Shown here: positions 2,401 to 57,800 of the stretch, piece after piece
Layout: every line of letters begins with the position of its first letter
Position numbering within the stretch: position 1 is the first letter of the stretch
NCBI RefSeq assembly: GCF_000002985.6
Contig: NC_003280.10
Coordinates: forward strand, 11,838,501 to 11,902,500
Source: Caenorhabditis elegans
Lineage: Eukaryota; Nematoda; Chromadorea; Rhabditida; Rhabditidae
DNA: 64,000 bases
Direction: 5' to 3'
Program-made: the position numbers and the translations under genes
The notes under the pieces: model-generated
The model's database searches: none
Told to the model about the DNA's origin: nothing
The model's input: the letters and a program-made list of their open reading frames with translations, nothing else

Positions 2401-4396
2401 ACATATTTTCCAAAATAAACTCGCTCATCTCATTTTTACCGTCAAAAACTCATCAAACATTCGCCAGTTTTCTGTCACAATGTCCCCATATCTAGTTTTC
2501 TCTCCATCATGGATCAGTGGGCATGCCACTCCGTTCAAGATTTTTGACCTTCTGGTCAAACAATCCGATGAAAACTTGAATTGTGGAGAGAAATTTGAAT
2601 TTCAATTTGAAATTTGTGCCTTTTTTAGGTATGGGACGCCCGATTCTTTGAAGAACATAATCTGTTTATTCGGGGGAGTGCATTTGGATTACTGAACTTG
2701 TGATACAATAAAGTGATAGAAGTTCTGCATTTTCAAAAATCACGATGAGGTGATTCTGTTACAGATATTCAGGTCAAAGTGAAGCTGAAGTAGGAAAAAT
2801 CATTTGTCGAAGCGCCCGACTTTTCCGGGCTCTGCAACTTGCTGTGTTTTTTCATGATGAGTGATGGAACCCGGCAGGCGTCGGGCGCTGAAACTCAAGT
2901 TTTTAAAGAGATACTTTAACAGGAATTCAGAAAAAAAGACCGTTGCTTCAATTAGTTCCAATATTTTATGCTCATTGAGCTACATTAATCATCATAGACT
3001 CACGTATTTAGTCTCTTAAAGTAATATCCCGTGTGTCCAGGAAATTGGTACAAAAAAACTCATGATAATAATAAGACAGCGGGCAATAATAACAATAATA
3101 ACAAAAAGTGACAATTTTCGTACCCCTTTTTGTTCAACAGGACTATCTTATGATAAGAGGTGTGATTATGTTCTTCCATTGTTTTTATGTTTCCATAAAT
3201 TGAAGTATGAAGGATCAACAATTCGTGATTGGAAAATGACGTCATTTTCTCGGTTTCCATGTTCGTCAAAATTGATATTTCTTCGATTGATCACATAATA
3301 AACTTTTTTTACTGTTTTTCACGTGGATAAACTTGTCACGTGGAAAGGGCATGCAGCCGACACCTGACAGCTTCCGGAGAAAGTACAAAGTACAGTTGGT
3401 CCCGTGAAGTGTCGGCCGCACGAGCTGCTAAGCCAAATTGTATCGGTTGCTACCAGGGCAGCAGCCGACTTCCGCTGGGCTATTCGACTCACTTATTGAT
3501 ATTTAAAACATGACAATAAACCCGTCATGATCTATAAATAAAATGATATTTTTGAAGATCGCCTCCCTCGATATCTCCGCCGCTGCTGCGGTTTACGACG
3601 CACACTGTCACAAATCATCGGGGGGTTTCCTCTAATCTGGTCATCAAACGATATTGACTTTCAATATCCGCTTGATCTCAAGAAAGACTAATTAAATGGT
3701 CAATAAGTGCGCTCTACTGGACGTGTCAGTTTGAATCATTTTTGAAAAGCTGAAAGGTACGAGGAAAACTTGAACTTGAATCGTAGTCTCATGTAGTTAT
3801 AGAGTGTGAAGTTCTAGACTAAAACTAAAATTTGATGTGGTCTAGAATTATTTTTATTCAAAATCTTAACTTCTGCAATAATAAGTTATCAAAAACCAAA
3901 AAGTTTCAATTTCCCCCCATCTGATCATTGCCCCGATGCAATACAGCTTATCAGTATTAAATCATCATCAATACACAAAAATCTCTCCTCAAGAAACTCC
4001 GCCCAGATTCTCAACCTCGAGAGAATTACAGTTATCACTGTATCAACCCTTTATCAACTGCGTCTCGTCCTCTCTCATTTTCCGCCTTTTCCAGCGCCGC
4101 CTACTTTTTTGGGGTGGACACACACACACGCTCACACAAACGTCTCCTGTATATATAAATATAAAGAGAAACTCGTCTTCTCTGGAAATTCAGTTTACTT
4201 TTTCCTCAACAAAATGGAACATCGACCCTCTAGAAGGTACTTCTATGTGCTACTTTTTTTTTACTTTTTAGAATAGTTTATTTTGTTAATTTTTTGTTAA
4301 TGTGTTGTAAATTTGTAAAAGTTTGGAATAGAGCATTATCATTTCATTTTTTAGTTTTTTAGACTTATTCTTAACTTTAGATATTTGTTTCAAAAA
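2401..4396. other. Region without a recognised gene
   Basis: No supported gene. The stretch 3350-3490 holds copies of the GTGTCGGCTGC repeat in mixed orientation. The rest is AT-rich with short spurious open frames. Confidence 0.5.
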
Positions 4397-14300: not shown

Positions 14301-17300
14301 AGTGGAATTCATTATCCAGCTTTAGATGGAAACAAAACGTATTTACCAGAGGTGTGCGGCAAATTTGCCGAATTTGCCGATGCATTTTCACAGCTCATAT
14401 CTCGGCTAGTTTTAGCTTTGCAGAAAAAATGCCAACTAACAAATTACGTAGGCAAACGATGTTTTCCGGCAGATCGGCAAATCGTCAAATTGCCGGAATT
14501 TAAATTTCCGGGAAATCGGCAATTTGCCGGAATTGAAAATTTCTGTCAAATTGTAGTTTTGCACTTTTTTTTTTTGAAATTTAAGGATTTCAATTTCAAA
14601 TGGAAAAATTAAACAAATCCTATAAATGTTCCTACATCTATTTTGAAAAATAAAAAAATTCTATGAGAATATCTAGAAAAAACGGAAATAATTAAAATGA
14701 CACAGTTAAGTGTTTCCGTCTTGTAAAAAAATCCCTCAAAACGTTTCCGGCAAACGACAAATCGGCAAACCGGCAAATTTCCGGAATTGAAAATTTCCGG
14801 CAAATTGGCAAACCGGCAATTTGCCGATTTGCTGAATTTGTCGACAAATCAATTTGCCGAACGGCATTTGCCGCTCACCCCTGATTTATACCGAGGACTC
14901 AAAATTTTTGTTAATATTAATTCTCCATTACCCAAAATCCCCATAACCCCTCTAATCACCTGGTCTACATTTCTCAAATCAATAACTTCCAATGTCCTTT
15001 TCTCTTCCTCAATTAATTGTCTTATTTGATTCGTGTGATGGCCGGAAGCGTGTCCACTAAGGAAACAAGTCTATTTTCGGTGGCGTCCCCCAATTCTTTC
15101 TTCCCCCATAAGTGATAAAGAAACACCATTTACTCATAGGGTTGTGTATCTTTGAACTGATTCAACAAAAGCTTTCAGATTTGGATGGTTATTTGGGGAA
15201 ATGCTAAATGGGGTATTCACATGAAAAGCCTGCCAGACCCCTTGGTCATGTTTCTATTTCCGTTTCTTTTCATGATAAGAATGGTATTCGTATTCGCCTG
15301 CAAGAACTGTGGTATGATCAGTTTTCGCCCATATATGAACGATAATGATGATGATGATCGAGACTCACGAGATGATGAATCGAATTAGAAATTGAACAAA
15401 TTGATAGTTTTTCTTTTTCTGACACTTTGGACTTCTATTTTTGGTACTTTTGGACAAAAAAGGCTTCAGGTCACAGGGGATGACTACAAAATATGTTTAC
15501 TAGGGATAATTTGTGAGTAAAAACATAGAAAAACTTTTAAAAAAAAGCCACCGACATCTGACGGGTAACAAAATTTTTTTGTTTTTTTTATTTCAATTTA
15601 ATTTATTAAATTCCCTGTTACTATGTCTGGATAAATTTTGTCAAAAAGTTATAGCAGCCGACAGCTCGCTGGACCAAACTGCATCGGTTTGGGGTAACTT
15701 ATTGAAAGCAGCCGACACTTCACGGGCTGTCTTGGTAAAGTTTTGACTAGTTTTTTTTTTCAAAGCAGCCGACGCCTAGCTGGACCAGAGTTTCAAAGCT
15801 TGGCTCAGCTATTAAAAGCAGCCGACCCCTTGCGAGGCCACATAGGATAAGGTTTTTTAAGCAGCGGGCATCTTGCGGGACCATTGGGAAAGCTCAACCT
15901 TTAAAGCAGCCGACACTTTGCAGGTCGGCCGGATTTGTATTCTAGGATCAACTTCAAACGCAGCCGACACCTAGCGAGTCCGTTTCATAAAATCCACACA
16001 ACACCACACAAACCTATCACGATATTCATTCCATTCCTTTTCCGTCGGCTCAATCGGGCTGCATTCAACACTGCAAGAAAAAACACACTAACAATCACAC
16101 ACTAAGTTGCTCACTCTTCCATTAACATGTGGGGTCTCGCAGTGAACTGCACAATGTCCGATGGAAGGCTCGACTGGCCCGACGATTGAGTGTCTTCGCC
16201 ACGTCGTCGGTGCTCCTCGTCGACGACGACGGCGTCTTCCATCCTGATGTGCAGAATCAATTAACAATGAAAACTACACGTAAAAAGTAAGAAAAAGGAG
16301 GCGAACTGTTAGGTGATGACACTGGGGGCAGAAACACAATCGAGATGAGAAAGACGATACAATATCAATAATTCAAAATATTCTTCGTTTTTCTTCTTTT
16401 CTCCGTTTCCTTTCTCCCCTTCTATCTCTATTCCTCTCCAATCACACAGGTGTCTTGATCGATGGTGACAAGAAGTTAAGAGTGGGTGGAGCCTCCTTCA
16501 CAGACATTTTTCACAGACATGCGCATGCGCAATGGATGATCAAGGGGAAGGTGAATGATACAAAAGGGGGTATAGAGAAGCTGCAATATACTCCACACAA
16601 AGCTTATCAATTGACTACTTGTTTACTTTTCGACTATTTTTAGCTGTGATAATTTTTGGGTTTTCACTTCTGCTTCAGACTGTATGGCTGGTTAATTTTT
16701 TTTGAGTTTTCAGAATTAAAAAAAAACATGCTCTTTTTTAAATTTACATTTTGACATCAAATTGTTGTTTATATGTGTTTTAATTCTGAGGGGCAATTTT
16801 CCGGCAAGTTGGCACATTGCCGGAATTGAACATTTTCGGCAAATCGGTAAACCGGCAAATTGACGATTCCCCGGATTTGCCGGAAAAATGGCAATTACCG
16901 AATTTTTCCGGCAAGTTGGCGGAATTTAAAATTTTTGGCAAATCGGCAAATTGTCGGATTTGAACTTTCCGGCAAATCGGAAACTTGTCGGAATTGAAAA
17001 TTTCCGGCAAATCGGCAAATTGCCGGAATTTAAAGTTTCCGGGAAATCGGCAAATTGCCGGAATTGAAAAATTTTCGGCAAATTGATATACCGGCAAATT
17101 TACGATTTTCCGGATTTGCCGGAAAATTGCCGAAATTTCGAAATTTTCTGGCAAGTTGGCAAACTTTCGAAATTAAACTTTCCGGCAAATCGGCAAATTG
17201 CTGGAATTGAACTTTTCGGGAAAGCGGCAAGTTTGGTCTTGCACGTTTTTTTGGAAATTTCAGAATACAAATGTCAATCGGCAAAATTGTACGCATCCTA

Positions 17301-21100: not shown

Positions 21101-22520
21101 GCTCCACGGTTAAACCAAAACGCTCCGCCCCCATACTCTGGGTCTCGTTAGGAACTGGCGGTAATTTCAAAGGGATTCAATGATTTGTTGTGTTTTTTTT
21201 TGTAATTTTTAATGATTTTTATGCCGAAATTTGTGAAAAAAGTTTATAATCTTCACATGAGGTCGCAAAACACTCTGAAATTTTATCTTATAAAATTGAA
21301 TTCTTCTGCGTATTTTCACTGTTGCGCGTAAGGTTTGACGTAAATAACACATCACACTTCACGCGCAAAATCTTCCAAATTTTAGGCTCGAAAATCTACT
21401 GATCTCATAAAAAAATAAGAAATTTGATGTTGATGCAGGGAGAAACTGATCGTTTATCTCCCAAAAACTTTATTAACGGAAATGACACATCCGTTGATAA
21501 GGTAGTATGATAAGGCCGGAAATTCTATTTATTCAACGAGAAATTCGTAAAATCAGGTGACAAGGTACTGGACAAAACATCATATTTTCAAAATTCAAGA
21601 CTAAATTTAAAAATGTTTGTTTTTTCCTTATCAGTTGAAAAAAATTGATAAAAGCATTAAATGGTGGGTGTCCCAGCTGAAAAACAGCAGATTTTTGAAA
21701 GAGTGAATTAAAAATTGATTGCGAGCTCAGGAACAGAATATCATAATATATATATAATATATATCAGAATCAAAGAGATTATCCGTTTGAAGCCATCACA
21801 ATAGGATGAAGAGATTAGAGATGTAGATTAGAGGAAACGCAGAGATATATGTGTGTGTCAAAAGTATGCACACACACAAAACTTTGTAACAATTCGAGAA
21901 ATCAGTGGAACGGATAAATAATCAACTTCATTTGAATGATGTGAGTTAGAATCGCTCCAATTTGATTGATAATCTTCGTGTTAAACTTCTCTTCAACAGG
22001 TGGGTGTAGTGAACGACGGATACCTGGAGACCAAAAAGAAAAAATCTGAAATATTTGCAATATATACTCTTGTGAATGAAAATCTACACTTTTTCACCTT
22101 TTCCTAAAGGAAAATTGTTGAGATTAATTTGAAAATTAATTAAATTTAAAAAAAAACAAAAAACACTGTGCGTCGAATAAAATGCACTACGCAAGTTTGC
22201 TGCGTACTTCACCAACTACAGTATCCTTTCCAATAATTTTTTTGATCACCGCGGTGCACCGCTTTATGAACTGGAATGTGTTGTTTAATCTGAAGATTTT
22301 TTTTATTAAATCATTAAAGAAATCCGGTAATATTTGCCAATTTATTTTTTTTTTCTATTTTAAATTATATCAATGAATTAATTTGAACTCTGAACGATTG
22401 TCCAAAAACACTACACCAGTGATGGCCGCGTGGTTGCTCGGCCACCCGTTGTGTACTCTTTTTGGAGAACTGACAGAACTTCATATTTATTTTTTTCACG
22501 ATAAATCCTATTTTTCTGTT

Positions 22521-22528
22521 TTTTTCAG
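22521..22528 (+). promoter_or_regulatory. Trans-splice acceptor before the RNase H-like gene
   Basis: TTTTTCAG ends ten bases before the ATG at 22538, with no upstream exon needed. This fits SL1 trans-splicing and fixes the start codon. Confidence 0.65.
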
Positions 22529-22537
22529 TTATTCATC

Positions 22538-24802
22538 ATGGAGCAAAGCATTTTTCGAGACGAAAAAGGAGATTGTCCAATTGTCTACCTAGCTGGCACG
22601 CTAATATCAATTGGCTCGAAACCCAGTGCGCGATACGGAGTTTGTTGGGGAGCCGGTAAGAAGTTTTCTCCGGCGAATTCATTGAATTTTTTCTATTTTC
22701 AGGGCATGCCAAAAACGAAGGTGGACCAGTTGCCGGAAGTCAAACCTCTTTGCGAGCTGAACTCACTGCTCTCAGAAGAACTTTGGAGATTGTAAGAGTA
22801 CAAAATAATTTTGCTAACTTATTAAACGTTTAAGACGTACGTTTTTAGGCACTCGCAGAAGACATCACAAAGCTGATAATAGTATTTCCATCGAAAATGC
22901 TCGGCGAGCAACTTGAGGTGTGGGAAAGGCGTCCAGAACAGCACGCTAGCTTCGAAAATAGTGACATTTTGTACAGAGTCGAGCAGCTTTTCGGAGAAGC
23001 TGAAGCGCGGGTAATACTTTCACATAAATAAATCAATTTTTATTATAATACAATTTTCAGATGTACTTCTCAATTGATTTGCCGACGCCTCCTGATCCAC
23101 GAGCTCACGGATACACAAAAGCACTTCAGTTAGCTAGGACGATGCTTGTTGCGTCCAGGATTTCAAGAAATTCCCAGATTACAACTGTTGCGATCTTTGC
23201 AATTTGCGAAAAAGAAGGAAAGTGCGATGCACTTGCAAAATATGGAGTTTACTGGGGCCAAGACGATCATCGAAACGAGGCCGGTCTCGTAGAAGATGGA
23301 CAAACGAGTTTGAGAGCAATCATGTGTGCCGTACGCTCAGCATTGAGAACTGCGGCAATGCACGGATTGAAACGCGTTCATTTCCTCACTCGCAGAATTG
23401 ACATTATCAACATTATCAAGAAATTAGCTAAAGGAGAAGAAGAAGATAGCCCTGGAAAACGAAATGGAGCAATTTTCAGCGACTGCAGCCGCCTGCGCAG
23501 TGAGCTCTTGGATATCAGTGTTAAACTCGTTCAAAAGGATGTCCCCTGTGTTGAGTTAGACAGAGCCGAAGCCATTACTCGAGGAGCTACGAAGAAACTA
23601 AAGAAGCGGGACAATGAATATGAACGGCTAGATCGACAATTACTCATGATTGAATCGTCTTCTTCAGCATCAAGTCCCGAATCGCAGCCGAAAATCGAAA
23701 ATATTGGAGACAAGTGCCCAACTGCTGTCATTCTTAATCTTCTTGTTAGACCAAAATTCGGCCATAGTAAGGTCTCATATGCGGTATACTGGGGAGAAAA
23801 CGATGAAAAGAATGAACGTGGACCTGTGAACATGCGTGCACATGCTTTTCAAGCTGACTTGTATGCAGCTATGTGCGCACTGAAAAAGGTAATATAATAA
23901 TTATTCCTATTTTATTTGTTAAAATCAATTTTTTACAGGCAAGGAGCAAAAATATTCGGAAACTTCATCTGCTGACCACATCCGAATATTTCAAAAACTG
24001 GATGGAAAATGTTCAGAAGAAAAACGAGCTGATTAATGATAGATATGATGTAATGATGGAATTTCAACTTCTTCTGCAAAATTTCGAATCAGTGACAATA
24101 GAAGTTGTAAACTCGAGCACTCAAGGTGCACGAAGAAAGATGTACGAAGATGCTCAAACCTTTTTCGCGGGAAGAAATGAATCTATCCAGAAGCAGCGTT
24201 CCATTGAAGACATCCAGCTCGAAGATCCCATAGAGAACAACATAGTTGAAGCGGAATCTGTTAATCCAGAATCCAGCAATCAAATTCAAGTTGTCTATGT
24301 TGGAGGTGCATGCCGAGGAAGAGGATATGCGAACGCTTTAGCTGTATACTCCGTCGTTTGGCCAATAGGTATTTGAATCTCTTTTCTTTTTTTAAAATTA
24401 AATTAATTTAAAAATTTTTATTTATTTTTTCAGGTGAATATGGATGCTCCCAAGGCCCGGTCACTGGCATTGTCAACAACATTCGTGCAAAGCTGGCTGC
24501 CGTGAAAAGTGCGCTGCAACAGGCTGAACAATTGGGAATCGCCTCGCTCATCATCAGGACAAACGATCAAATGGTCCACGACACCTTGATTCTTCAGAAT
24601 TCCCCAATTGGAAACATTGATTTGATGGATGACATTGAAAGTTACAAATCTCGAATGAGGGTAAGCTGAAGCCTGAGGATTTAATTTGAAAAAATTAATA
24701 AATTTACAGTTCGTTGCATACCAGCTAACCACCGGAGACTATGCAAGAGGCAACGTCGTGGCTGATAGATTGGCCGAAGTTATCGTTGAGAGCATATTCT
24801 GA
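22538..24802 (+). CDS. Protein with four degenerate RNase H-like domains
   Basis: Predicted 648 residues; exons 22538-22655, 22703-22791, 22849-23010, 23061-23888, 23939-24368, 24434-24660 and 24710-24802, all in phase. Four segments each resemble RNase HI: an ARYGVCWG or KYGVYWG-type strand, a QTSLRAEL-type helix, a short strand, and in places a VADRLAE-type end. Active RNase HI needs D-E-D-D. Domain 1 has A19, E59 and P83 at the first three sites; domain 2 has A, I and R; domain 3 lacks the first, has D for E and T for the third; domain 4 has G, K and N but keeps the last aspartate. No domain can be a normal nuclease. It may bind RNA:DNA hybrid or nucleic acid, or act as a scaffold; function is unknown. 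The nearest 3' neighbour is convergent. Confidence 0.85.
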
Positions 24803-24912: not shown

Positions 24913-24931
24913 CCCCCCCCCCCCCCCCCCC
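24913..24931. repeat. Run of 19 cytosines
   Basis: Nineteen consecutive C on the plus strand (G on the minus) lie between the convergent 3' ends of the RNase H-like gene and the gene at 25.0 kb. Such G tracts can form G-quadruplexes. In C. elegans they are deleted in dog-1 (FANCJ helicase) mutants. Confidence 0.95.
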
Positions 24932-25024: not shown

Positions 25025-26993
25025 TCAGATTATCATCACAGAAGTTAGCGGCTTGTTGAACTTCTTTGCACAATCTCCCTCGCCAGGATGTCTGAACTCG
25101 AAGCCGCCTGTCGCATTTTTTGCCGATGGGTCTGGATTCTTTTTCATGTACTCACTGTAAAAGCTAGTTGAAGGTTGATGAGCGATATTCAGATTGAACT
25201 TACAAGATCTTCTTCCGATGTCCTTTTCCAACGGATCCACCATAATTTCCGTAGATCGCATTCTCGCCTACAACTAGCTCAGTGACCTTCGTATTGACTC
25301 TGCAAAATTAAACAATTCTATTAGGTTACTTCAGATTGCAGAAAATTCCAACCAACCGCTTCAGATTATCCATAATCTCTGCCAGATCTAGTCCAAAGTC
25401 TCGAATCGTGGAAGTTATCATCTGCTCACGCATCCAAGGAAGCATAAATGCCTGAAATTTGATCATTTTTGACTGAAAACCTGGAAAATAGTACAATTCC
25501 AATGAAACTTTTGCTTTCAAATTCTTTGCGGACATCATTGATGGGATTTTCCATGAAAATATAGTCAAACGAGAAACAATATTCATCTCGGAGATTTCCA
25601 GCAGCCGCCAGGAGAATGCTGAAAAATGAAATTTAGATAAACGCGATTTTTTGAATTTTGGCAAACCGCGACCAATAAACGATTCGCTCCTCCCACTTTT
25701 CAACCAATCAGGTGGAGTGGACGGAGTTCGAAGACGCTGATTGGTCGTGCAGATTGGATTTATTAAGCGAACGGCTTAGGCTTCAAGCTTTTCCCACTCA
25801 CTTGGCTGCAATTCCTTTACCAAACGCTGAAATTTTAGCCTTCCTCGTCATTTGCCTAACGTAATGATAGCAGATTTCAGCGATGTCCATGTATTCCTTA
25901 AACGTCAGTTTCGGTCCGTTTTGGGCTGAAAACACGGGCTCTACTCGGCTTAAAAATTCAATTTTCTTACAATACGGGCGGCACAACAAGACATTATCCT
26001 GAAAATCGTCGAAACCACAATCATCGATCACTAGCAGCACACGCTCGAGCTCATCCAGTGACAATTTTTTGTTCTTCACGTAGAATCTGGAGGAATTTTT
26101 ACGATTTTTACGATACACAAAAATAATGTTTCCGGGTCTCGACGCGAACGAAATTTCACAGCTACAATATCGGGTACTGTAGCTGCAAAGTTTTGGTCGT
26201 CTCGAGACCTCTCTTCCATACTTTATATTAACTTCCGAACCGCCCGTAGAAAGATTCGTGGCCCAAGCCAAATTTTTCGAGTTCTGAACTTGGTTCGGAT
26301 GGGCACATTTCCATTCTGAAATTCTTTTTTGAAAAAGCCATTCTAAAAATTCTCAAAGTCAGCAAGCGCGCTCCATTGCGAACACTCACCAAGGCTGGCA
26401 TTAAACGGAACGATAATATTTGGGTACATGAAAGCGATCAACGAAGGTCCCAACACGAAACACGTGGCGAGGAATAGCACAAAAATAAGAGATTCTCCGA
26501 CATTTCTAGAATATTGATTTTAAAATATTTTTGATTTTCCGATATTACATATTCGCGAAATTTTGTGATTTTCGCGCCAATAATATGGTTCCTGGTCTCG
26601 ACAAGAAATGTTAAATGTGAAAAAGCTTTTGAAGAGTACTGTAGTTCAAAATTTTAATCAATGAAATTTTGAAACTACAGTACTCTTCAAAGGCGCACAC
26701 ATTTTCGCAGTAGGCAAAAACATATCGTTTCGAGACCTGCTACCGCATTTTTGGCGCAAAAACCTCATTTTAATAATATAACCTACACACTTAATAATAT
26801 AACTCACTAACCTACAAACCGAGACATATAATTCTGAATGCCATCGAACCCTGGGATGCTTGTCCGGTGCGATCACCTCCCGACGGAATGGGGTGTCCTT
26901 TACCGATTTTTGAGAAGACAGTTGCAATTGTTGCAAAGAGTTTTGAATTTCATTCATAACGAGAATTGTTTTGCTAACTTTTTTCTTGGTCAA
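25025..26993 (-). CDS. Unrecognised single-pass membrane protein
   Basis: I do not recognise this protein. The model has eight exons and 373 residues: 26812-26993, 26390-26505, 26222-26315, 26086-25802, 25618-25495, 25451-25357, 25299-25204 and 25154-25025. After about 60 polar residues a hydrophobic stretch (SLIFVLFLATCFVLGPSLIA, about residues 65-84) forms one membrane span. The remaining C-terminal part is soluble, with several cysteines (LCRPYCKK, EICYHYV), an acidic stretch (VIDDCGFDDFQD) and a glycine-rich, basic segment (YGNYGGSVGKGHRKK). The basic N-terminus and single span suggest a type II membrane protein, but the topology is inferred. The intron 26087-26221 could also be read through, because its palindromic repeat sequence is open in the same frame; I treat it as an intron because it has a GTATGG donor and CTCCAG acceptor. 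Confidence 0.7.
26568..26763. repeat. GTCTCGA foldback element in intron 1
   Basis: The arms run from TTTTCGCGCCAA inward through CTGGTCTCGA and GAAGAGTACTGTAG, then back through CTACAGTACTCTTC, TCGAGACC and TTGGCGCAAAA. A related shorter foldback at about 26137-26211 fills another intron of the same gene. Confidence 0.8.
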
Positions 26994-27187
26994 AAATTGT
27001 GCGAAATGATTTTTTTAAAAATTTTCTTTTTCACGTTTTAGTTGGGAAGAAAATTGTTCATGGTAGAGACAGAAAGAAAACAGACAACAAAATGAGTGTG
27101 TGTGCGTGATGTGGCGGGAAATCACGAAGAAAATAAATTTAAAATTTTACAAACAAGGAAGAATAAAATTTAAAAAAAAACAGGGAA

Positions 27188-30100
27188 TTAGACCGGTTGA
27201 AGAGTGGAATAGAGTTGACGAGGAGCGCCAAACGTTGATCCTTTATTGATAAACTGTCGTCGAGCATTCGATTTGACAGTTTTCGAGTCTTCCGCGAGCT
27301 TCAGTTGACGGAGAACTTGATCGCCATCGATAATTCCGATTAGTGCTTCGTCTGGAAATATTAATTTTAAATTTTATATTAATTTTAAAATTTGAATAAT
27401 ATATACCATTAATAGATATTTCATAAACCAATGCTTTCGCTGTTTCCAGACAATCACATTCAATTTCAGCACGCATCAATTGCTGGAAAACCTCTCCGAG
27501 ACGTTGTACAAAAGCGAGCACTTTCAGCGACTGCTTCTTCCATTTTGTTTTCGTGCACATTTGCTTACAGAAGTGAAGTCCCAGATCCAAAGCATTTGCA
27601 TAAGCGTGGGCAGAGGTTCCCTTTCTGAAAAAATACTTGATTAGTACTTTAGGATTACTGTAGCTTTGCGGAAAAAATCCTCAAATAATGGGTCTCGTTA
27701 GGTGAATATTTGGCGGCAAAATTGTAAATTTGAATTTTTTCGTGTTTTGCCAATTCTCATGAATTTTCTCATGAAAATCATGAAAAACTTTCAGTCGTTT
27801 TTATTGATTTTTATGCCGAAAATCGTGTAGAAATGAAGAAACGCATTTTAAAAACATAATTTCTGCATAAAAAACTATAGCAATTTGTTAAAACCAACAT
27901 AAAAAAACGAAAAATACTCAAAACTTGGCAAAACTAACTGAAAACATTTGAATTTACAATTTTGCCGCCAAATACCTAACGAGACCCATGGTTCGAAGGC
28001 GAAGCGTTTTCACCTCACAAGTGAAACTTACACTTTAACAGTTTCGGGTTTCAAAAAGAGCTCTTTCGGTGGTTCAATGAACGGAGGCATCTCGGCAAGG
28101 ATCTCCGAAACAGCAAGCTCGGCAAGAACGTGCCATCCAGATTCTGAAGTTCCGTAGCGCGTCAGGAATGTCTAAAAATGGAGGATTTAGTAATAAATTT
28201 TCAATTAAAACAAACAAAAAAAAACTTACTAAAATCGAGATGAACAAGTTGTAATTAGAAATGTGCTCCGCTTGATTAACCCCAGCAACACCTCCACCAC
28301 CTTCCTTCCTTGCAGCTGTCACAATATTCCAGTCGAAATCGATGTGCAACAGCTCCTCGCACAAAATCCGCGGCACTCCACTCTTCGAAAAGTGATTGCA
28401 AATCTTCTTGTTGCCCTTCAAATCCTCATGAATCAAATCGTTGGCCAGCATTATCCCAGCGGCCTTCCTATGCTTCGGTAGATCGGCAATACTTCCCTCC
28501 AGATGTCGTGCTATCTCGTCGGCCATCTTATCCACAATATTGACAATTTCATCCGATGATGGGGTCTCCAGTGGTGCGATGAGTCCGTCGAGAAGCCATT
28601 CTTCAGCTTCATTTACTGTCTGAAAAATTGATTTTTGAAATTTAGAGTTGAAGCTGATTGTGAATAAAAAGAAATTGCTCACGTCAATGCTATTCTTCTC
28701 AAACAATGTTCGTAGGATGAAGCGCATCGTTTTGTAGAGTTGAACCTGAAATCAAGAAATTTTGTATTTTACTTATTAAATATGAAGTGGCATGAATGAA
28801 AAGGTTTTGGTTTCAAATCTTAAAAATTTCTGAAATTCAGAAAAAAAAAAGCAGGAGCAATTATTTTCGGCAATTTTACATAACTACCTATTGCACCATG
28901 TTTTTCCATCACTTTTCATTGAGAAGTGGTGTCAAAATATAGAAAATAACTTGATTTATCTCAAAATAACATTTATTCCAGCTGAAACATGATAAAATAG
29001 TTAAAAAAATGTCCTGAAATCTCTCAAGCCTTGTATTTCTGCAATTGACAACTTTCAGATCATTCTGAGCATTTTTTCCAAATATTTCTGCTCAGATGAA
29101 TGTTATTTTCAAATAAATTAAGTGGTTTTCCATATTTTGGCACTTATTACGGAAACACATAGTTCTGAGATTGCGTATTGAGCAACATATTTGACGCGCA
29201 AGATATCTCGTAGCGAAAACTACAGTAATTCTTCAAATGACTAATGTAGCTCTTGTGTCGATTTACGGGTTCTCGATTTTCGAAATTAATTTATTTTCGA
29301 AAGCTACAGGGATTCTCAATTTTCTTTAGTTTTTCGTTTTTTTTCAAAGTGAAAGAAAGTTTTTCTAAATCAACACAAGCGCTACCGTAGTAATTTAAGG
29401 ATTACTGTAGTTTTCGCTACGAGATATTTTGCCCGTCAAATATGTTGCTCAATACGCATTCTCAGAATTTCGTGTACCCGTAATAAATAAATACATCCCT
29501 GTTTTAACCAAAAATGAAACAGTTAGTTTTCAAAAGTTTCATTTTTCACTTTTTTTTTCGTTTTTCTTTCTTGACATTCCTGAATTTAAGCCAGTTTTTT
29601 TTTTGGGTATTTTAAAGAACAAAAATCCCATTAACCCTTACTTTTGCATCAACACACTTCTCTCCAGGCTGTAGAAACAGGTCGATCATACTTTTGAACA
29701 GTGGTGCAAAGAATTCGCGAAGATCGAGAAGCTGCAAAAAATCAAATTATTTTTTTCTCCATTTCCAATAACTTGTCATCACCATATAATATCAATCAAA
29801 GTTACTTGTTTTGTTCACAAATATCCCCCTCATTATCTCTTTTTATTCGGTTACCCCATCACAACATCAATCTTCTGTGCGCCTAAACGAGTTCCACCCT
29901 TATCATATCACGGAGAGAAGCTTCAAGTACTGGTTATGGATAAGAAGTATTGTATAAAAGAAGCACTGATTGGGTCGTAAAACTACGATATTTTAGACTG
30001 TTTTTCATATTCATATTAATTATTTTATCTTTTTAGAACCAAGTATGCAAGTGCATACAGCCACCTTCGTCGCTTCTTCCTTGTCGGGCATTGCCCTTTT

Positions 30101-42531: not shown

Positions 42532-43075
42532 ACATGGTGCATGAGCAGCTGAATACTGGAACGAAATTTGAATAAGTTGATTCTCAGAAGTTTGGCCGAT
42601 GGCGGTATCGAGTGAAAGGGTCAAAAGGAAATGAATGTCAAGAGAGAGAGAGAGACCGACCTGTTTGAGAGAAGAAGGAGAAACTGGGCGGGGTTTTGGT
42701 AACAGGGGAAAGGATAAGGAAAAAGTTGGAGAGTTTGGGGTGAAGGTGAAAATAGTCGAAAGTTGAGAGGGGCGGGGCATCGTGTCTCGAGAAGCTGGAA
42801 GATTCTGGAAAATCTGAAAAAAACACCTTTTTTAAAAAGGTATTCCGTGATCGTGGCAAGACCTGGGAAATGGGAATTATATTTTAGAAATGTACAAAAA
42901 AATCGTGGCGAGACCCACCAAGGTTTTTACAATATAAAAATATCAACTAACTTTGAATTCGCGGAAAAAGTCAGTTTTCAAAAAAAAAACTACAAATTCT
43001 CGTTTCCATTACTTTTCAGAAATTAGCTATACAGTAGAGAAGGCGCTCACGAAACTTCTCAAACGTAGATCAAAC

Positions 43076-43916
43076 CAGGGGTGGGCGGCGAATGGCGTTC
43101 GGCAAATTGATATGTCGACAAATTCGGCAAATCGACAAATTGCCGGTTTGCCGATTTGCCGGAAATTTTTAATTCCGGCAAATTGTCGGTTTGTCGATTT
43201 TCCGGAAATTTAAATTCCAGCAATTTGCCGATTAGCCGGAAATTTAAATTCCAGCAATTTGCCGATTTGCCGGAAATTTTCCATTCCGGCAAATTGTCGA
43301 TTTGCCGGAAATTTTTATTTTCGGCAAATTGCCGGTTTGCCGTTTGCCGGAAATTTAAATTCCAGCAATTTGCCGATTTGCCAGAAATTTTCCATTCCGG
43401 CAAATTGTCGATTTGCCGGAAATTTTTATTTTCGGCAATTTGCCGATTTGCCGTTTGCCGGATATCTAATTTGCCGGAAATGTTTAGAGGGACTTTTTAT
43501 AAGACAGAAACACTGAAAACTGTGCTTTTTTGAATTTTTTCCCGTTTTTTCTACATATTTTCATAGAATTTGCTTGCTTTTCAAAATAGATGTAAGAGAA
43601 TTCATAGGATGTGTTCAGTTTTGTCATTTGAAATTGGAATTCTGAAGTTTCGAAAAATAAGTGCAAAACCGTATTTGCCGAAAATTTTCGGCAAATCGGC
43701 AATTTGCCGGTTTGCCGGAAATTTTTAATTCCGGCAATTTGCCGATTTGCCGATTTGCCGGTTTGCCGGAAATTTTCAATTCCAGCGATTTGCCGGTTTG
43801 CGGGAAATTTTTAATTCCGCCAATTAGCCGGTTTGCCGATTTGCCGGAAATTTCAATTCCGGCAATTTGCCGATTTGCCGATTTGCCGGAAAAATCGTTT
43901 GCCGCCCACCCCTGGA
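43076..43916. mobile_element. CGGCAAAT inverted-repeat element, copy 3 (most complete)
   Basis: Terminal inverted repeats CCAGGGGTGGGCGGC and its complement are intact at both ends. Dense ATTTGCCGGAAATT words fill both arms around a core at about 43490-43670 that carries the complements of CTACATCTATTTTGAAAA and of the family's CATAGGAT word. No protein is encoded; the open frames are repeat-derived. This is the best reference copy in the window. Confidence 0.85.
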
Positions 43917-44113
43917 TCAAACCGGCATGGGACACTCTGACGCCACGTGTATTTCTGGATTTTTTGAAAAATTTTACCGTTGCTATTATTTATCGGCGTG
44001 TTCCTTAAAAACCTGTATCTAAAAATAAAACACGCAACCACGTAAAAACAAAGCCACGTGGCAGTTGCGATGTTGATTTTTTTGATCACAATCGGCATTA
44101 TTTCTTTCGAAAA

Positions 44114-45790: not shown

Positions 45791-46267
45791 TCCAATAGAG
45801 TTATGGTGCAGTATATTACTCTTGAACTCCTTATCTCCGTTGCACCATCATGTCCAACCTGACAGCCATTAGCCAAAATTAACTATCTTTGTCTCGCCCT
45901 CTTGCACTTCGCTCTGTACATCTGGTTTTGTTGTCTCTCTCTCTCTACGAGTTCTTCTTCTTCTTCTTCTTCTTTGGGGTACCACCACCAACACTACCAC
46001 CCGCCAGGTTTTTTATTGCTTTTCTTTCTTTGTGCGCGTAAATTTCAAATGCAAACGGGGAGGAAACGGAAAAAGATTTGAATCGGAGACTGACGGTGAT
46101 GGTTGATGATGACACCCTTTAGTGTTGCACTTTCTAGTATGCAACAGGGGAGCTTGAAGGAATGGGCCGTAAGCCTGAGGTTTTAGGCTCAGAGAGGCTT
46201 GTGAAAACTGAATTTGAAAAAAAGAAAACCACTGATCTTTGAAAGTACAGTTTTTGAAAAAAAAATG

Positions 46268-46640
46268 GAGGGGTGGGCGGCAAAAGATTTTTTCCGGCAA
46301 ATCGGCAAATTGCCGGAATTGAACTTTCCGGCAAATCGGAAAATTGTAGGAATTGAAATTTGCGGCAAATCGGCAAATCGGAAAATTGTGGTTTTGCTCT
46401 TTCTTTTTTTTTGAAATTTCAGAAATTCAATTTTTATCGGCAAAATTGTACGCATCCTATGAATATTTCTACATCTATTTTGAAAAGTAAGCAAATTGTA
46501 TAAAATATCTAAAGAAAACGGGAAAAAATTTCAAAAAGGCACAGTTTTGTGTGTGCTTCTGTCTTATCAAAAATCCTTTTAGAATCGTCCGGCAAAAATC
46601 GGAACTTTGCCGAATTTGTAGACAAAAAAATGTGTTTCTT
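46268..46640. mobile_element. CGGCAAAT element, copy 5
   Basis: The left end GGAGGGGTGGGCGGCAAA is clear. The core is present (CTACATCTATTTTGAAAAGT near 46468; CTTATCAAAAATCC near 46562). The right half is truncated. Confidence 0.75.
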
Positions 46641-54893: not shown

Positions 54894-57800
54894 TCTGCCC
54901 AAAAAATGAGCCGGGAACAAGAGCTGAAAATCAGAAACAAAAGAGTTGATGTTAGAAGAAAATGAAAAGAAAAAGGACGAGTGATAAAACTATGAGCGCA
55001 CAGCAGCGGCAAAATAATCGGAAAAAAATGATTGGTTTTTGTGAAGGGAAAAGGGAAGCATGGGGGGAAATAAACAACAAAAATCCGCTTTTTCGTTCGT
55101 AATGTGCATTCTCTTCCCACACACTTTGACTCATCGTACTGTAACACACTTAGAGACGGAAAGGACAGGAAGAAGAAGAATAAGAAGGACCTCATCATTT
55201 ATATTACTATTTAATATGTTCACTTTTACTCATTACTCATCTGGTAAAGTGTACTCAAATACGAAAGATTTTGTGCTACTTCTTGAGCAGCACGTTTTCA
55301 TTTGGACCCAAGCCATCAAAAAAGGTGGGCTGTAGGAATATACATACCTCTACTAACTGAGATATAGTAACTGAATATGTAATATCAGAATAATTTGAGG
55401 CAGTTTTTGAACGACCTCTCAAAGAAATTTCAGTTGAAAATAAGGTGACTTTAAAGAAGAATTGGAAAATGTGCCGCCCATCTCTGATTCAAAAGAACTT
55501 GAACGGAAAATAATAACAGGAAAATGACAATTATAAGATGAAATAGCATGCGTTGGGCATAATATAAATCTACAGTACTCCTACATTATTTTTGAAACGT
55601 TTGGTAGACCATGTATACCGCGAAACTCTATCAGAATCTGTAATTATCTATAAAGTCACAATGACACAATATTGTAGTACATAGTTACTACAGTAACCCA
55701 GTAATACGTCTGAAATCATGAGACCATGAATTCAGAGTGAAAAAGGTAAAATACTATATATAGAAATTTTACGAAATTTAAGTTTGAATAATATTTTTAA
55801 AAAAATTCTGATAAAGTTGGCTGCGAGTCAGGGAGTGCGCGGCAAATGATTTTTTCCAGCAAATCGGCAAATTGCCGGAATCGAAAACTTCCGGAAAATT
55901 GGCAAACCGGCACTTTTCGATTTGCCGAATTTGTGCTTGTTTACATTGAAACTACATTAACACACAGTATATCTAAAAATGTTTTTGAAAGAATGTGATG
56001 ACCCAGATTCCACAACAATCCCACTCCCAAGTCCAACTCAAAATCCTCAGCATTCTCCTGCTTCCAGGTGAATGCGCAAATGACAAAACGACAAGTTTCA
56101 TGAAAAGACAAGAAAAAAAATATGAATGAGGATATTGAGATGAACAACGACGTCTTCTGAAGAAAAAGAAAAGACGAAGACCGAGGAATAGGTTGATGGG
56201 CCATGACGACGTGACGAAAGAATTTCATTTACATAGGATAGACCCCCTTCCAAGACTTTTCAAACAAAAAACCGTACAGACGTTTTTTCTTGACATTTAA
56301 GTACAGGATGTTCTATTTATGAGAAGTTGGAACTTGGTGTCATCGTGGGGATTAGCTGAGTAGCGACTCGCCAGATGGCATCCGAATGTACGGCAGGAGT
56401 GGGCGGCAAACGATTTTTCCGGCAAATCGGCAAAACAGCAAATTTCCGGAATTGAAATTTTCCGGAAAATCGGAAAATAGGCAAATTGCCGGAAATGAAA
56501 TTTTCCGGCAAATCGGCAAACCGGCAGATTGCCGGAATTGAAAATTTCTGGCAATCCGGCAAACCGGCAAATTGCTGATTTGCCGAATTTGCATGAAAAA
56601 AAGGCATTTGTCCTTTTTCGGAAATTTCAGAATTTCAATTTCAATCGACAAAATTGTACGTATCATATGAATGCTTTTACATCTATTTTGAAAAGTAAGC
56701 AAATTATATAAAAATGTCTAAAGAAAACGGGAAAAGACTTTCAAATAGGCACAGTTTTAAATGTTTCTGCCTTATAAAAAATCCTTTCAGAATCTTCCGG
56801 CAAATCTGATATCCGGCAAACGGCAAATCGGCAATTTGCGGAAAATAAAAATTTCCGGCAAAGCGGCGAACCGGCTGCCGAACTTACCGAACGGCAATTG
56901 CCGCCCACCCTTGATGTACGGTACTAGTTTTTTGACATTTATAGTGTAAAAAAAAAGTTTCAAGCTCATTGGGAGCATTGAATTTTGATTCAATTTTTTT
57001 AGCAACTTTTCCGAACTTTCAATGAAGACTAAATTTATTTTCAGAAAGGTCAAGTATTTTTCTGTTTATCTACATATATAAATTTTAAAAAAAACCTATA
57101 ATAAGACGGTAATTTCAAATGAAATAGGTAGATGCTGGTCATCTAGTTTTCAAAACTTGGCTCAACTTAGCTCCAAAAAAAGTGTTCTATGTATGATAGG
57201 TAGGCATTTATCATGCCTACCTACAACATATTTTTTACATTTTGGCATTTAATTCAACTCCACTTACACAACAAAAACAGCTGTAGATGGGAAAAAGTTA
57301 ATGAAACCCAGAAAAATCCTGAGCCCGACACAGACATTCTTAATGAAAAATTCTGATTTTTAGTGATTTCCATTACTTTTCTTGGCTAAATGAAAAATCT
57401 AAATATACCAAAATAAAGTGCCACACACACTGGAAAGCGAGAAAAAAAATGGTGATAGAAAAGAAATTTGCATATGACAATAAAATCGCGGTGACCGATA
57501 AAAGACGATTGGCTCATAGAGAGCATTTGCATAAAAATAAGGTGCGTCTTCGTGGACATATTGATGGAGTTATGGAGCCGAGAAATATGTGAGGAAGGTG
57601 TGGATAAGAATTGAAAATGTTCGTTTAGCACCTAAAAACACCTAAAAATCACAGTTGTAATTTATAACTGATAGCTCGGTTTTTGAATTTATTTCACCTA
57701 GAAAACTTGAATAAATTTCAGATTTTGATTGGAAGTAAATTTTTGAAATTAAATAGGAGCCACAAAAAAATAATATGTATATTGTTTGCCAAAAATCAGA

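Follow-up and report, generated by a model that had tools for sequence, protein, structure and literature searches.

RNase H folds without the usual catalytic set occur in the RNase H-like domain of Prp8, in many worm WAGO Argonautes and in Maelstrom, and dead enzymes that have been retained as scaffolds are known. The connection domain of retroviral reverse transcriptase is an RNase H domain that has lost catalysis and turned structural (PMC11363490). RNase H1, the active enzyme, grips its substrate by contacting 2'-OH groups, by a pocket for DNA phosphate and by a channel beside a basic protrusion (PMC4132731 and PMC8387031); the Trp-rich protrusion itself is described in PMC8387031.

The window considered here, a 64,000-nucleotide stretch of Caenorhabditis elegans chromosome II (11,838,501-11,902,500 of contig C2), contains a gene for a protein with four RNase H-type domains in tandem (D1 to D4; Table 1). 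The protein resembles the catalytic domain of eukaryotic RNase H1 (human RNase H1, PDB 2QK9; C. elegans RNH-1.0) in its fold profile, its helix A region and its intron sites, and its beta-2 strand ends in W-G or W-P. Unlike that enzyme, it has four copies of the domain, lacks the D-E-D-D set, has lost most of the RNA contacts and of the basic protrusion, and shows no N-terminal hybrid-binding domain in a Pfam scan up to E 10, which returns only RVT_3 and RNase_H. Like the connection domain of retroviral enzymes, it has lost RNase H catalysis and, putatively, taken on a structural role; however, no polymerase domain is among its Pfam matches, and its descent points to cellular RNase H1. Whereas Prp8, the WAGO Argonautes and Maelstrom each carry one such domain in unrelated architectures, the present protein is a tandem array.

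The joined exons amount to 1947 nt, encoding 648 residues and a stop, and the six introns, 47-65 nt each, all have GT-AG ends. The coordinates, protein length and clean splicing claimed in the earlier note are therefore borne out, and no broken frame or splice site was found in the gene. The acceptor-like element upstream of the ATG is likely a trans-splice leader acceptor. With codon use in two long ORFs of the window as reference, frame 0 of the spliced gene comes out at 0.106 bits per codon and the two remaining frames at -0.304 and -0.620, so that coding-like codon use is confined to frame 0.

Table 1. Features of the four-domain gene. Positions are those of the window; catalytic residues are given in the order of the D-E-D-D columns, as read from three MAFFT modes; R10, R12 and R13 are canonical C. 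elegans RNase H genes that serve as rows of the domain alignment.
Feature	Positions	Strand	Residues	Remarks
TTTTTTTCAG acceptor	22519..22528	+		Read from sequence; end 9 nt upstream of ATG
Whole gene	22538..24802	+	648	Seven exons; stop 24800-24802; spliced frame open
Exons 1 to 7	22538-22655, 22703-22791, 22849-23010, 23061-23888, 23939-24368, 24434-24660, 24710-24802	+
Domain 1 (D1)	22571..23162	+	12-157	Introns 1-3 inside; HMM 27-117; A19, E59 (kept), P83, L145
Domain 2 (D2)	23169..23645	+	160-318	Intron-free; HMM 178-236; F169 or gap, I210, R234, fourth unstable between alignments
Domain 3 (D3)	23718..24181	+	343-480	Intron 4 inside; HMM 360-423; L348 or gap, D389, T413, fourth unstable between alignments
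Acidic linker D3-D4	24182..24280	+	481-513	Net charge -6; last two residues shared with domain 4
Domain 4 (D4)	24275..24799	+	512-648	Introns 5 and 6 inside; HMM 517-645; G521, K562, N586, D637 (kept)
Intron 1, site (i)	22656..22702	+		Phase 1; two residues past beta-2 Trp; column and phase as in intron 5, R12 and R13; exact, three aligners
Intron 2, site (ii)	22792..22848	+		Phase 0; end of helix A; column and phase as in D3, paralogue domain B, R10, R12 and R13; exact, three aligners
Intron 3, site (iii)	23011..23060	+		Phase 0; before beta 5; same phase, 1-3 columns off that of R13 and 2-13 off that of R10, depending on aligner
Intron 4 (D3), site (ii)	23889..23938	+		Phase 0; exact, three aligners
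Intron 5 (D4), site (i)	24369..24433	+		Phase 1; exact, three aligners
Intron 6 (D4), site (iii)	24661..24709	+		Phase 0; exact match to R10, three aligners

These features bear on the question of whether the gene is decaying or already a pseudogene. D1 to D4 are only 17-25% identical to each other in pairwise comparison, as might be expected of such decay, and in a between-domain dN/dS comparison synonymous sites are saturated in three of four domain pairs, which yield no estimate of selection (dS is 2.4 in the fourth). Nevertheless, a 648-codon frame remains open over seven exons with consensus splice sites, the codon score is positive in frame 0 only, and the frame of a paralogue (see below) is open as well. 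Decay is disfavoured by the open frame and codon use, and we regard it as very unlikely; the gene has presumably been retained by selection.

The domain assignment was examined with an HMM of canonical RNase HI, whose rows are 17 prokaryotic or viral loci and a worm RNase H domain that we take to be that of RNH-1.0. This model reports four domains in the 648-residue protein, with boundaries reproduced within one residue on rebuild. Scored singly, D1 to D4 reach 20.4-20.5, 13.0-13.1, 17.2-17.3 and 27.2 bits (D2 taken as residues 160-330 and D3 as 343-500), and these four, together with the three domains of the paralogue, all exceed the best of 7000 shuffles (9.7-9.8 bits). Single-sequence hhalign agrees, with probabilities of 67.6, 38.2, 81.7 and 95.1% for D1 to D4, compared to 9.6% for the best of 210 shuffles, and D1 matches human RNase H1 over positions 10-85 (E 8.1e-8). 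With Pfam, the whole protein matches RVT_3 (E 7.1e-16) in four stretches and RNase_H (E 3.2e-10) in three, both at a loose threshold of 10; the PHROGs profiles give one weak RNase match (E 0.006). Taken quarter by quarter, a check that had been proposed earlier, the protein gives weak Pfam matches in three of the quarters, the curated cut-off being passed by the third only (RVT_3), but none for the second quarter alone. D2 is thus the weakest domain singly by Pfam, hhalign and HMM score. Taken together, the profile comparisons establish four RNase H-type domains in tandem, as the earlier note had held, and each of them is predicted to adopt the RNase H fold.

The catalytic columns were read from alignments of two row sets, each in three MAFFT modes. 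Only two of the 16 D-E-D-D acids are kept (E59 and D637), with at most one per domain in any mode, so that by its catalytic residues the protein does not qualify as an RNase H1 enzyme; D389 is a conservative E-to-D change. The three modes concur on columns 2 and 3 in all four domains and on column 1 in D1 and D4. The residues listed in the earlier note agree wherever the columns can be placed, but column 1 of D2 (given there as A) and of D3, and column 4 of both, have no firm position. The possibility that misalignment masks a full set was rejected, since no mode on either row set restores D-E-D-D in any domain. Accordingly, the claim that no domain has a complete set stands, and the alignments demonstrate that the catalytic set has been lost from all four domains.

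Residual or newly acquired nuclease activity would need either a composite site formed across domains or new chemistry. E59 and D637 remain, D389 is also acidic, and Maelstrom's MAEL domain, whose RNase H fold works by different chemistry, offers a precedent. However, no domain of the protein has more than one of the four acids, and the first catalytic Asp is kept in none of the seven domains of the two genes. Such activity is therefore highly improbable, and the four-domain protein would be expected to be inactive in the test tube.

The introns carry information on where the repeat units came from. All six sit within domains, and their positions and phases match those of canonical RNase H genes elsewhere in the genome, five exactly and the sixth (intron 3) closely. 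Under uniform, independent placement and a correct alignment, the chance of at least five exact matches in six on three sites is about 1e-10, and that of all six falling within a tolerance of 15 nt is 1e-4; the former value overstates the case, because intron placements are not independent if they were copied along with the domains. A profile of the seven degenerate domains of the target and paralogue, with canonical rows excluded, has human RNase H1 as its top match among solved structures (E 1.2e-16, over positions 3-120 of 141), followed by further RNase H chains at E 0.0011 and 0.011, and the degenerate-domain profile aligns with canonical RNase HI in hhalign at 98.1% (E 1.3e-13). By profile and homology, then, the domains belong to the RNase H1 (RNase HI) superfamily. 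The common intron sites make a cellular RNase H1 gene with introns the most likely ancestor of the units. The catalytic domain of such a gene would have been duplicated in tandem; the fold would have persisted in the copies, whereas almost every metal-binding acid, the majority of RNA-contact residues and a large part of the basic protrusion would have disappeared. In one of the canonical genes, R13 (contig C1; reverse strand of L022, with reverse-complement positions of about 3258-3880), the frame as spliced ends a short way past the GH motif, which would leave it without the fourth catalytic Asp; a missed splice is possible.

A tandemly repeated RNase H domain domesticated from a retroelement is suggested by the top Pfam model for the whole protein, RVT_3, which is labelled reverse-transcriptase-like. 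Against this source, canonical RNase H genes share intron sites with the gene, the Pfam scan of the protein shows no reverse-transcriptase domain apart from RVT_3, and the seven-domain profile reaches reverse transcriptase/ribonuclease H chains only at E 0.37-0.38, amid unrelated matches from 0.025 upward, in contrast to its match to human RNase H1. The introns and profile scores disfavour a retroelement origin, to which we assign almost no weight.

A genome search recovered a further gene, on chromosome II near 10,397,000 (L018 3002-5221), in which three degenerate RNase H domains (pA, pB and pC) stand in tandem. As spliced here, it has an open frame of 505 residues whose protein begins MEQ; it matches Pfam RNase_H in three stretches (E 5.8e-15) and the RNase H family of PHROGs (E 2e-13). 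Three of its 12 catalytic acids are kept (D83, E258 and D431), and one alignment mode adds D489. Like the four-domain protein, it is an array of degenerate RNase H domains, but it has one domain fewer, and its third domain, which has no readable first strand, retains a single acid and the larger part of the Trp-rich protrusion. In a domain tree of 16 rows, with several very long branches and supports under the 95/80 mark, D2 groups with pA (86/79); D1, D2, D3, pA and pB cluster at 92/91, and D4 and pC lie nearer the canonical rows. As for introns, D2 and pA have none, and D3 and pB have the helix-A site. This grouping, combined with the intron pattern, suggests that a three-domain array predated the separation of the two genes. 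Together, the two genes point to cellular RNase H1 as the source of a small family of tandem pseudonucleases.

The extent of this family was gauged in the 100.3-Mb genome (seven contigs) by exon-by-exon scanning in which only the best candidates were considered. Scans with PF00075 list neither the four-domain gene nor its paralogue, which indicates that such scanning is insensitive; the family thus has at least two members, and more are possible. Weak genome matches occur on contigs C5 (E 0.29), C3 (E 1.0) and C6 (E 6.2). Upstream of the paralogue lies a gene that, by eye, we take to be GAPDH-like, and a small gene between the two (L018 2297-2739) was rejected as a further RNase H-like candidate: its Pfam RVT_3 match (E 0.036) is below the cut-off, and it fails to exceed 3000 shuffles with either HMM.

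Loss of catalysis leaves the question of what the domains might bind. Alignment columns 17, 48 and 49, whose Asn residues are presumably RNA contacts of RNase H1, keep Asn in one, two and none of the seven domains, respectively, in each aligner mode. Columns Asn106 and Thr47, which we take to form its DNA phosphate-binding pocket, are kept in five and three of the seven, again in each mode. The TNN motif ahead of the catalytic Glu, whose residues have a role in the enzyme, is missing and reads TSL, TSL, HAF and NNI in D1 to D4. Each of the four has a shortened Trp-rich basic protrusion, with Trp left in D1 and D3 in some alignments, and Tyr replaces the canonical Trp at column 26 in all seven domains in two aligner modes and in six of them in the third. 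The whole protein has a pI of 6.8, compared to 9.2 for the RNH-1.0 domain; D2 (pI 9.0) and D3 (pI 9.2) are basic, D1 and D4 are slightly acidic with a net negative charge, and the linkers are acidic too. An NLS-like motif, KKLKKR, lies at residues 301-306.

Given the loss of most Asn residues at columns 17, 48 and 49, the shortened protrusion and the charge pattern, canonical RNA:DNA-hybrid binding by the four-domain protein looks weakened. Hybrid binding, one of the roles offered in the earlier note, is consequently not well supported, yet the Asn106 retained in five of seven domains would still permit some nucleic-acid contact, and the basic D2 and D3 could touch a nucleic-acid backbone. One alternative, then, is a nucleic-acid reader, whose four dead domains would engage RNA:DNA hybrids or dsRNA simultaneously at multiple positions. 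Catalytically dead RNase H has reportedly been used in a yeast study as an R-loop probe (PMC12134985), which would be the model for such a reader. The pocket counts for Asn106 and Thr47 sit better with nucleic-acid binding than with a scaffold for proteins alone, and the basic D2 and D3 and the NLS-like motif are in keeping with such binding; the mostly missing RNA-contact Asn residues, the shortened protrusion and the net negative D1 and D4 are not. On balance, we consider a reader of this kind possible but doubtful.

In our estimate, it is improbable that a nematode family of tandem pseudo-RNase H1 proteins rivals active RNase H1 through multivalent reading or protection of RNA:DNA hybrids or small-RNA duplexes. 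If true, these proteins would be a natural counterpart to engineered dead RNase H probes, and hybrid binding by the four-domain protein would bear on R-loop biology and on small-RNA silencing in worms. A model animal with four such domains in a row, of cellular RNase H1 origin, and a sister gene with three would offer a clean genetic test of what the RNase H fold is capable of when it does not cut.

The joint best explanation, to which we assign a probability of roughly 55%, is that the protein arose from a tandemly duplicated cellular RNase H1, lost catalysis, kept the fold and now serves as a non-catalytic scaffold. Protein partners would be held by its four RNase H-type surfaces, which short acidic linkers connect, and the most likely role is a scaffold mainly for such partners. 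The non-catalytic role proposed in the earlier note thus survives as the natural reading, apart from its hybrid-binding component. The three-domain gene, which shows losses of this kind too, strengthens that reading, as does a coding signal in frame 0 only.

Among open-licence papers, none was found that ties expression, partners or mutants to the gene, a weak absence because its WormBase name was not established. The guessed names C07H4.1 (PMC2689271, PMC7555309) and F33H1.4 (PMC8753122) appear, in the accessible portions of these papers, in expression or lifespan lists with no tie to either gene. The corresponding portions of PMC6927752, PMC4975890 and PMC3685541 concern other genes, and that of PMC5603734 contains no description of a four-domain protein.

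Elsewhere in the window, a neighbouring gene occupies 25801-28751 on the minus strand, and three of its ORF pieces are without a Pfam match above the cut-off. Open frames of a repeated motif (FADLPEIFN and similar) at 16783-17172, 43062-44005, 46016-46426 and 56355-56717 seem to be in-frame readings of a short dispersed repeat. Just 3' of the stop of the four-domain gene lies a run of 19 C (24913-24931), the sole run of G or C of at least 12 in the window; G/C tracts of this kind in C. elegans are deletion-prone without DOG-1/FANCJ.
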